This document shows positions 40,616 to 44,564 of a stretch of 64,000 bases of DNA, one piece after another (within the stretch, counting starts at the first letter, position 1; each line of letters begins with the position of its first letter). The notes under the pieces were generated by a model, which was not told the DNA's origin, did not search any database, and saw nothing but the letters and a program-made list of their open reading frames with translations. Both the position numbers and the translations under genes were made by a program. This stretch comes from an uncultured Oscillospiraceae bacterium (GTDB taxonomy: Bacteria > Bacillota > Clostridia > Oscillospirales > Ruminococcaceae), in contig CAJFOX010000019.1 of NCBI GenBank assembly GCA_904397845.1, forward strand, positions 1 to 64,000, written 5' to 3'.

Positions 40616-40710
40616 GGCGAAAAACAAGGAGATTTATCCAATCTATCTGCATAGTTTGAAATGCGATGTCAAAAATATTCCAAGGAGCAGAACAAAGGGA
40701 GGAATTTGAC

Positions 40711-40977
40711 ATGGTGCGTGGCGTACACAAAAAAATCATTGAGGTAGCGGATACGCAAAATGAATTTTTTGAACGGGCTATTTTGATTGTAAAAGAAGGA
40801 TCCCGGGACGAAGATCCGGAGCGTCTGCGCCAAAAAGCGGGGGATTACGTTTCTCAAATGGGAAACGTAGCGCTGGCTCGGCGGAAAAAGGAAAAATTTT
40901 TACGCCGTTTGGGGAAGGCATTGGCAATCGCTGCTTTTAGTATCGCTGTGGTATTGATGATCATTTTTTTGTTTTGA
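40711..40977 (+). CDS. Small hypothetical protein with C-terminal TM segment (88 aa)
   Basis: GGGAGG upstream of ATG 40711; MVRGVHKKIIEVADTQNEFFERAILIVKEGSRD...KALAIAAFSIAVVLMIIFLF. Confidence 0.75.
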   Translation: MVRGVHKKIIEVADTQNEFFERAILIVKEGSRDEDPERLRQKAGDYVSQMGNVALARRKKEKFLRRLGKALAIAAFSIAVVLMIIFLF

Positions 40978-41140: not shown

Positions 41141-41908
41141 ATGTCGGATCGGGCACAGAAAAATGACAGCCAGCTGATTTTTGGCAGAAATGCTGTATTG
41201 GAAGCAATTAAGGCTGGCGTAGCGATTGATAAGCTTTATGTGGCGCCAGTAGAACAAAGGGGAAGCATGGGGCAAATTATTTCCCTGGCAAAAGCGGCGG
41301 GCGTTCCGGTTAAAGATGTGACCGGCCAAAAGCTGGACGCCATGACTGGCAATCAGGCGCATCAGGGTGTTGCGGCGACGGTTGCGGCAGTTGCTTATAC
41401 CACAATAGATCAGGTCTGGGAATTGGCCCGGCAGAAGGGAGAAAATCTTTTTTTGATTCTTGCGGATGAAATAGAGGATCCGCACAACCTCGGCGCTTTG
41501 ATCCGGACGGCAGAATGCTGCGGCGCTCATGGGATTGTCATACCGAAACGGCGCAGCGCAGGATTGTCGCCCACAGTGTATAAAAGCTCGGCAGGGGCGG
41601 TAAGTCACCTGCCGGTAGTACGGGTGGCAAATCTGGCATCTTTTATCGACGAGCTGAAAAAGCAAGGCGTGTGGTTTTACTGTGCCGATATGGACGGACA
41701 GACTTGGTGCCAAACAGATTTCAGCAGCCATACGGCATTGGTAGTTGGCTCAGAGGGAAACGGTGTGGGCCGCTTGATCAAAGAAAAGTGCGACTTTGCG
41801 GTTTCGCTGCCGATGTTGGGCAAAATCAGCTCGTTAAACGCTTCTGTAGCTGGCGGCGTGCTGATGTATGAAATTGCCAGGCAGCGTCTTGCCATTAAGG
41901 CGCGGTAG
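41141..41908 (+). CDS. rlmB: 23S rRNA (guanosine-2'-O-)-methyltransferase RlmB (SpoU/TrmH family)
   Basis: LIFGRNAVLEAIKAGVAIDKLYV; LADEIEDPHNLGALIRTAECCGAHGIVIPKRRSAGLSPTVYKSSAGAVSHLPVVRV; VVGSEGNGVGRLIKEKCDFAVSLPMLGKISSLNASVAGGVLMYE. Confidence 0.94.
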   Translation: MSDRAQKNDSQLIFGRNAVLEAIKAGVAIDKLYVAPVEQRGSMGQIISLAKAAGVPVKDVTGQKLDAMTGNQAHQGVAATVAAVAYTTIDQVWELARQKGENLFLILADEIEDPHNLGALIRTAECCGAHGIVIPKRRSAGLSPTVYKSSAGAVSHLPVVRVANLASFIDELKKQGVWFYCADMDGQTWCQTDFSSHTALVVGSEGNGVGRLIKEKCDFAVSLPMLGKISSLNASVAGGVLMYEIARQRLAIKAR

Positions 41909-41924
41909 GAAAGGAGGAACCGGT

Positions 41925-44312
41925 ATGCCCAATTCTTATGATGTAGACGATATTTTGGAAGAAATTAAGCGGAAAAAAAGCGCGAAGTCGGCGCAGGAGC
42001 ACAATGCGCAACGAATGAAGCCCACAGCCTGGGACCGGGTGGAAACGCCGGCGCCGGTCAATACGCCGGCACCTGAACAGGTACAGCAGGCGTCCTCTTT
42101 GGAAGGACTGGCAGATTTTTTTGGCAGCAATGCCAAGTTTGACATCGGCGTACAGGATAAAAAAGCGTCTTGGCGCTCTGCCGTATCGGATCGGAAGGAA
42201 CCGGAGGAAAAGACAGAAGAGGCGTCAGAGATTCCCGCTCAGTTGGAACCGTCATTTTTGGATGCGCAGCAGCCGGAGGATAAAGAAAGCGTAGAATCTT
42301 CTCATTCGGTAATCCATTTTGATTTGGAGCGGTGGCAGCAGGAAGAAGAGCTACCCCGGGAACCCAGTCTGGAAAAAACGCAGCTGAATATCCCCCTTTC
42401 GGCAGTTCGAGAGACGGAGGAGGATCAGCCGGAAAATTTGGAAAAAACCCAAAGCATTCCAGCACCCGGCCCGGCGGATCATTTTGATTTTGAAGGCCTG
42501 CAGCGTACGCTGCGGGATCAGGAGAACGATTTCGGGGAGGAACCGTTCTCCGACGAAGAGGAATTGGGGGACGAAGAAGACATTGAAGATTTTCGCACGC
42601 CGGCGGATATTGCACCGATTCGTCATGATCTGCAATCTTCGCTGTTTTCTCTGAACGTCCGAATTGCAGTGGTGGCGGTGCTGTTTGCCGGCACGCTGTA
42701 TTTTGCGCTGGCCCAGACGGCGGGACTGCCGTTGCCTGCCTTTATGGATTTGGAAACTCAGCCGCGCATCTATATGATTGTAAATCTGGCGCTGGTGATC
42801 CTGTCAGCGCTGGTCTGCAATACCACCGTCGGCGGCGGGCTTGCATCCCTTTTGACGATGCATGCCGATGGGGATTCTCTGGCCGCGCTGGCGGTGATTT
42901 CTACAATCGTGCAGGGCGTTGCGATAGCGGCATTCCCCCAAAAGCTGCAGGAGCAAACGCTGGGGCTTTTCTTTTCAGCGGCTGTTTTTGGGCTTCTTTG
43001 CAATGTGTGGGGGAAGAAGACACTCGTTTCCCGGATTGAAGGAAATTTCAGGATTGTTTCTTCTGAACGGCCGAAAAAAGCAGTTTTATATTTGAAAAAT
43101 AAAGAACTGGCCCGGGAATTGAGCCGGGGGATGGATCTAAATCCGCCCAATCTGGCCTATGCCAGCAAAACGGGCTTTCTTACTCGCTTTTTAGAACAGT
43201 CTTACGAGCCGGACAATAGCGAAGGATTGTTCCGGGTCATTGCACCAGTGGTGGCATTGTGCAGCTTAGTGGTCGGCGGAGTCAGCTATTATCTGACCCG
43301 GGACATTTTTACGGCGTTGACCGCATTTAGTGCGGTAACCTGCGTTGCTTCTCCGATTACAGCCACGCTTTACGCTAATTATCCACTGTTGCGCGCGCAG
43401 AGATCCCTTTCCAAAGAAGGAGCACAGCTGACCGGTTTTGAGGCGGTGGATACTTTCAGTACGATTAACGGCGTGACAGTGGACGCCAGCGAGCTGTTTC
43501 CCAGCGACAATGTCCTGCTGCACAACATCAAAATGTTTGAAAAGCGCAGGATCGACGAAGCGATTCTGGATGCGTCCAGCGCTTTATGTTCCTTTGACGG
43601 CACCATCAAAAATATATTTATGAAAATCATACAGGGCAAAATGGAGATCTTAAAAAAGGTTGAGAACCTGGTGTATGAAGAGGGAATGGGGCTGTCCGCC
43701 TGGGTAGATGGCAAGCGAGTGCTGATCGGCAACAGCGCACTGATGCGCCATCATGAAATTTATACCCCTTCTGCCGATTACGAGGCGAAATACCGCGTTG
43801 GCGGCCGGGAACTGATCTATCTTTCCAATTCCGGCGAGCTGACAGCTATGTTTGTCGTCAGTTATCAGCCGGATCCTGAAATTGCGCGATGGCTATATGA
43901 GTTGGAACGCAAGGGAATCGGTCTGATCGTCCGCTCCACCGATCCTAACCTGACAGCCGAAAAAATCGCTCAGGTATATGACCTGCCGGTGGAGATGGTA
44001 CATGTCCTCCCGGCAAAACTGCACAGCGATTTCGATATTATGACTGCTCGAAAGGACACGGCACCGTCCGGACTGTCCTTTACCGGCGGCATTGTATCAT
44101 TATTTCATGGTGTGACTGCTGCGATCTCGGTGAAAAGCGCCATTGCATTGGGGACAGTGCTTCAGATTGTAGGAATTTTGCTGGGATACGGCATTATGAC
44201 GGTGTTTACCCTGCTGGGTGCGATGCAAAACGCCAATGGATTGGCGGTATTGGCTTTCCAGCTTTTGTGGGGAGCCGGAACCATGCTGTTTTCTAATTTG
44301 CGAAAAATCTGA
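41925..44312 (+). CDS. Large acidic-N-terminal membrane protein with degenerate P-type ATPase-like C-terminal half (pseudo-ATPase)
   Basis: PITATLYANYPLLRAQRSLSKEGAQLTGFEAVDTFSTINGVTVDASELFP aligns by eye with the P1B segment preceding DKTGTLT; KRVLIGNSALMRHHEI resembles the N-domain; no DKTGT and no GDGxND. Confidence 0.65.
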   Translation: MPNSYDVDDILEEIKRKKSAKSAQEHNAQRMKPTAWDRVETPAPVNTPAPEQVQQASSLEGLADFFGSNAKFDIGVQDKKASWRSAVSDRKEPEEKTEEASEIPAQLEPSFLDAQQPEDKESVESSHSVIHFDLERWQQEEELPREPSLEKTQLNIPLSAVRETEEDQPENLEKTQSIPAPGPADHFDFEGLQRTLRDQENDFGEEPFSDEEELGDEEDIEDFRTPADIAPIRHDLQSSLFSLNVRIAVVAVLFAGTLYFALAQTAGLPLPAFMDLETQPRIYMIVNLALVILSALVCNTTVGGGLASLLTMHADGDSLAALAVISTIVQGVAIAAFPQKLQEQTLGLFFSAAVFGLLCNVWGKKTLVSRIEGNFRIVSSERPKKAVLYLKNKELARELSRGMDLNPPNLAYASKTGFLTRFLEQSYEPDNSEGLFRVIAPVVALCSLVVGGVSYYLTRDIFTALTAFSAVTCVASPITATLYANYPLLRAQRSLSKEGAQLTGFEAVDTFSTINGVTVDASELFPSDNVLLHNIKMFEKRRIDEAILDASSALCSFDGTIKNIFMKIIQGKMEILKKVENLVYEEGMGLSAWVDGKRVLIGNSALMRHHEIYTPSADYEAKYRVGGRELIYLSNSGELTAMFVVSYQPDPEIARWLYELERKGIGLIVRSTDPNLTAEKIAQVYDLPVEMVHVLPAKLHSDFDIMTARKDTAPSGLSFTGGIVSLFHGVTAAISVKSAIALGTVLQIVGILLGYGIMTVFTLLGAMQNANGLAVLAFQLLWGAGTMLFSNLRKI

Positions 44313-44326
44313 TGAAAAATGATGAG

Positions 44327-44358
44327 TAAAAAAACACCCGTGTATGCGGGTGTTTTTT
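44327..44358 (+). terminator. Intrinsic terminator
   Basis: AAAAAAACACCCG tgtatg CGGGTGTTTTTTT. Confidence 0.9.
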
Positions 44359-44564
44359 TACGGGGGAAAAGGGGATTGATTCTATCCATCCTGACGATCC
44401 GCAATAAAAGAAAAAACGTACGCGAGATCTGTTTAAAACAGCAGGGATTTGGAAAAAAGTTGACTTTTCCGGGATATCTTTATATGATAACTGTGGATTT
44501 TTTTATAAATCAGCATAATTTATATGGGGTTCATATTCCCAAAAATGATGGAAGGACTTTTATA

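Follow-up and report, generated by a model that had tools for sequence, protein, structure and literature searches.

P-type ATPases are defined by the phosphorylated Asp in their DKTGT motif, and a gene in the window (the whole stretch of 64,000 nucleotides that was analysed) raises the question of what such a pump may serve for once this motif is gone. A sequence-only reading had proposed here a pseudo-P-type ATPase of P1B ancestry with a long acidic N-terminal arm. We found it to be a real gene on the forward strand (41925-44312), recognised by its open reading frame and by a family profile and encoding 795 aa plus the stop codon; the coordinates and the Asp codon at 43482-43484 (D520) were as first read. 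Immediately 5' of it, across a gap of 16 bases, lies rlmB (23S rRNA methyltransferase family; 41141-41908, forward strand), with which it presumably shares an operon. A strong Shine-Dalgarno sequence, AAAGGAGGAA, is read directly on the same strand at 41911-41920, just 5' of the ATG at 41925, and the start was set at this ATG because the site precedes it and because orthologues share the same beginning. The mechanical ORF start at 41868 was rejected, since it falls within rlmB, whose end is at 41908. Fourteen bases 3' of the stop codon, a terminator-like inverted repeat (44326-44361) probably marks the end of the operon.

The resemblance to P1B pumps goes far beyond chance. The window protein alone matches the NCBIfam model TIGR01525 with E=4.3e-12, far under its cut-off, and Legionella CopA (LpCopA, 3RFU) with E=1.2e-7, and a profile of 55 family members matches LpCopA with E=7.9e-38 in three collinear blocks, which cover its residues 81-216, 336-611 and, weakly, 654-700. 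Profile positions 9-144 align with LpCopA 81-216, the membrane helices MA-M2, and the parts of LpCopA that are skipped are 217-335, the actuator (A) domain, and 612-653, which holds GDGxND. CopA/P1B models are matched by 40 of the 55 members, the first member scoring far below the model cut-offs, and searches of Pfam and NCBIfam (above curated cut-offs) and of PADLOC (any match) assigned the window protein to no family. Eight hydropathy peaks with a consistent positive-inside charge predict eight transmembrane (TM) helices with both termini in the cytosol: four that correspond to MA, MB, M1 and M2 (about residues 247-361; 42663-43007; hydropathy, positive-inside charge and profile), M3 and M4 (43242-43376; LpCopA alignment and hydropathy), and M5 and M6 (44154-44288; hydropathy and the weak third profile block), all on the forward strand like the further features of the gene given below. 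When an AlphaFold model was used as the Foldseek query, P1B structures took each of the top 22 places (E=2.3e-11 to 8.9e-7), so that the fold search returns the pumps which the sequence-only reading had pointed to; a search against viral models gave weak P-type matches at most. The model was built from seven sequences and is of low confidence (mean pLDDT 56, the cytosolic head mostly 60-85), and the exact shape of the head therefore stays undefined; a separate model of the head was worse (pLDDT 54) and was set aside. Judged from these alignments, the family is derived from a P1B (CopA-like) ATPase, and its head and membrane part are, going by the profile match and by the fold search from a low-confidence model, of the P-type ATPase fold.

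The catalytic parts of this pump have been lost, as had been proposed, and the loss extends beyond the earlier claim to the A domain with its TGE. At their sites DKTGT and TGE are found in none of the 64 aligned orthologues, and neither is GDGxND, whose loop is deleted in the profile alignment; blocks 2 and 3 are separated there by about 10 residues (approximate junction at 44037-44072). The few matches to DKTG, TGD or TGE[SA] in orthologues all lie away from the catalytic sites. The A-domain segment measures 45-60 residues in the family against about 119 in LpCopA, and in the window protein the profile alignment leaves a remnant of about 54 residues (379-432; 43059-43220). A search of the window genome with PF00122 matched four other genes and missed this one; four further P-type ATPases, all of them with DKTGT, TGE and GDGxND, were identified in that genome. 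At the metal site, the replacement of CPC holds, but the reported ASP was off by one position: in the LpCopA alignment it is S476-P477-I478 (43350-43358) that faces Cys382-Pro383-Cys384, so that no CPC, SPC or CPH site is present, and the M4 proline alone is common (47/64). Similarly, DASELFP (residues 520-526; 43482-43502) does stand in place of DKTGTLT in the LpCopA and orthologue alignments, but it is the version of the window's genus; the family consensus of this new loop is [DE]-[LIV]-[FY]-P, and the former phosphorylation Asp is kept in 29 of 64 orthologues. Position 523 is D or E in 51 of the 64, position 525 is F or Y in 62, position 526 is P in 58 and position 536 is K or R in 61. The N-domain-like KRVLIGN stretch is present as claimed, and the orthologue alignment places a glycine motif, YEEGMGLSAWVDGKRVLIGN, at residues 584-603 (43674-43733), where the second G of GxG (G589) is kept in 63/64 and the G of GN (G602) in 64/64, together with a GN asparagine in 29/64 and an HP histidine in none. 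In the profile and orthologue alignments STDPN (residues 671-675; 43935-43949) replaces TGDxx, and D673, the D of the former TGD, is kept in 63 of 64 orthologues. The alignments argue strongly for a family that is catalytically dead, a pseudoenzyme.

For the N-terminal arm, the composition and the alignment of 64 orthologues delimit an acidic, low-complexity stretch (residues 1-234; 41925-42626), which is proline-rich as the sequence-only reading had it. Family-wide the arm holds 15% Glu and 8% Pro, with D+E at 23% and a net negative charge, and its length runs from 0 to 705 aa (median 276). It is presumed to be disordered and, from the predicted topology, cytosolic. A pattern search found near its tip the motif [YF]-x-[ILV]-[DE]-[DE]-I-L-x-E, which in the window protein reads YDVDDILEE (residues 5-13; 41937-41963) and which we propose as a docking motif. 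Of the 64 orthologues, 32 have the strict motif; a search of 592 neighbouring predicted proteins did not find it. In 21 whole genomes a degenerate DNA pattern for the motif gave 16 matches, 11 of them within the family, and the reversed-pattern control gave none; in the window's own genome the sole match is the pseudo-ATPase gene. By this pattern search across the 21 genomes, the motif appears to be nearly unique to the family. The arm is absent in some members, those of f10 and part of those of f14 (proteins of 523-564 aa), and docking through the arm would for this reason not be universal.

The gene is a single-copy core gene of one order. The family profile matches 188 of the 199 genomes of the window's order, Oscillospirales, and 153 of the 157 good ones, with one match per genome, except for a contaminated assembly (G044) with two. 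In the class sample all 12 positive genomes belong to this order, and no full-length member was found in 280 genomes of other orders; in the phylum sample, full-length matches were limited to three genomes, again all of this order. Full-length members being seen nowhere else in what was sampled, the family has most simply a single origin, in the ancestor of the order. Phylum-sample matches outside the order were rejected, as they are limited to the P-N part of ordinary pumps, and so were matches in other classes and in G063, G090, G106 and G135, which cover the P-N and M1-M2 parts only and look like real pumps. The family is under strong selection: comparisons between close relatives give a core dN/dS of about 0.04-0.13, and in several of the pairs synonymous sites are nearly saturated. 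The P-N region (0.03-0.13) has the lowest value of the regions in most close pairs, and in most of them the cytosolic head changes more slowly than the TM segments.

In 32 of the 42 loci examined, the gene immediately 5' of the family member is rlmB, in the same orientation and mostly across a gap of 4-40 bases. The pseudo-ATPase gene is kept where this link is not seen, for example in f13, and its role is therefore probably independent of rlmB. A small protein gene at 40666-40977 of the window (forward strand), whose product has a C-terminal TM helix (MVRGVHKKIIEV...), recurs close to rlmB in five related loci (L001, L003, L005, L006, L060). An elongation factor G paralogue of about 690 aa lies immediately or almost immediately 3' of the pseudo-ATPase gene in about a dozen loci (for example at 6976-9048 of L005); the window itself has none. 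In f19 genomes, the gene that flanks rlmB on its other side encodes another dead P-type ATPase, derived from the P2/P3 group and without DKTGT, TGE or GDGxND, so that rlmB sits between two pseudo-pumps; it was seen directly on the reverse strand in L049 (10551-12761) and L071 (11322-13778), and it occurs in L085, L086, L087, L092 and L096 as well. A single in-frame TGA was seen in each of two different P1B-like genes from two families, the pseudo-ATPase of G022 (locus L136) and a canonical CopA of G025 (L137), apparently at the same Gly of the LGK end of M2. The spoIVA matches in both genomes have no internal stop, and a recoded TGA in G022 is unlikely, since its spoIVA match covers the full length of the model with the frame open; the paired TGAs are perhaps a coincidence or an assembly error.

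We hypothesise that a P1B gene lost catalysis and was kept as a single-copy pseudoenzyme, a membrane scaffold or receptor that docks a partner through its arm in a general cell process, and we regard this as somewhat more probable than the other explanations taken together. For the catalytic parts of the P1B-type (CopA-like) pump, the simplest course is a single loss in the order's ancestor: the sequence shows that the A domain was cut down, that the GDGxND loop was deleted and that DKTGT gave way to the conserved [DE][LIV][FY]P loop, and it shows that the membrane part of eight helices and the P/N head, glycines included, are retained. Such a protein would not pump. Its arm may reach into the cytosol, where the tip motif would dock a putative partner, and the dead P/N head with the [DE][LIV][FY]P loop could provide a further surface for binding. 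The best fit, we infer, is a scaffold or receptor anchored in the membrane, because a dead enzyme is under strong selection, because its head is more constrained than its membrane part in most close pairs, and because it carries a tethered linear motif; against docking through the arm stands the restriction of the strict tip motif to half of the aligned orthologues. The wider formulation, an order-defining family of P-type pseudo-ATPases in which the whole architecture of a pump has come to serve signalling or scaffolding, with a cytosolic partner docked via a clade-specific linear motif, seems to us about evenly balanced.

The retained N-domain glycines could point to ligand binding instead of mere scaffolding. 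In a nucleotide- or ligand-sensing receptor, the N domain would still bind ATP or another nucleotide without hydrolysis and binding would alter the arm or the membrane part. A sensor would suit G589, G602 and the former TGD aspartate, which belong to the best-conserved positions (63-64 of 64), and it would suit the dN/dS of the P-N region, lower than that of the other regions in most close pairs, but the HP histidine is lost in 64/64, the GN asparagine is present in 29/64 and the glycines may be structural, and we consider this reading rather unlikely. A channel or permease that conducts ions or solutes passively after being uncoupled from ATP would explain why eight TM helices and the M4 proline (47/64) are retained; it is improbable in view of the lost M4 metal ligands and of the faster evolution, in most close pairs, of the TM segments than of the head in the cytosol. 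Equally improbable is a regulatory subunit, the dead heterodimer partner of a real cellular P-type ATPase, an arrangement to which the shared family descent and the second dead P-type ATPase of f19 genomes would lend themselves, although the loci examined showed no recurring association with copA or with other active pumps.

The suggestion of a sporulation factor has been weakened. That spoIVA is present in 176 of the 199 genomes of the order speaks for it, but among the 10 good-quality genomes that lack spoIVA, 9 keep the gene, four of one genus included (G053, G069, G083, G111), and none of the genomes sampled from the other orders of the class carries it. Because of this retention a sporulation-only function is unlikely, a dedicated factor being very doubtful, and a side role in sporulation is possible. 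The genus in question belongs to f10, and two further genomes of it (G034, G184) do carry spoIVA, which suggests that sporulation was lost recently. As to a decaying pseudogene or a chance resemblance, degenerate catalytic motifs might be expected of it, but the core dN/dS, the order-wide single-copy retention and the new conserved motifs leave it next to no probability, and the selection data already refute it. The scaffold or receptor remains the reading that we prefer.

A search of the literature (mostly open-access, the review PMC10654040 included) turned up neither the gene nor any comparable P-type pseudo-ATPase, and an order-wide, single-copy, strongly selected family without any catalytic motif is, as far as this search shows, undescribed. 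The family shows that the scaffold of a pump can be exapted, and it represents an uncharacterised core gene in one of the major groups of gut bacteria. The nine-residue tip motif offers a specific and testable handle on the putative binding partner. If our hypothesis is true, a docking device would serve a process in nearly all members of a dominant order of gut bacteria.

The proposed architecture can be compared with several known systems. MapZ, ZipA and similar disordered tethers also join a membrane anchor to a long cytosolic linker of low complexity in which a binding element is located; they are single-pass anchors with no P-type ATPase part, and FtsZ as a partner is unsupported here. 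Comparable as well are iRhoms and other membrane pseudoenzymes, which we take to be catalytically dead relatives of polytopic enzymes that serve as binding platforms and bear a large cytosolic N-terminal extension; unlike the present family, iRhoms have the unrelated rhomboid protease fold, and their clients are known. The second dead P-type ATPase of f19 genomes resembles the window family in adjoining rlmB and in missing DKTGT, TGE and GDGxND, and differs in belonging to another P-type subfamily, in keeping an A-domain-like region and in being seen only in f19. With P1B ATPases such as Legionella CopA (3RFU) the family shares a collinear eight-helix membrane part, with M3-M4 followed by the P-N head and M5-M6, and the GxG/GN region of the N domain; in contrast to them it has a reduced A domain, has lost TGE, DKTGT, GDGxND, HP and CPC, and carries a long acidic arm where the metal-binding domains stand in the pumps.
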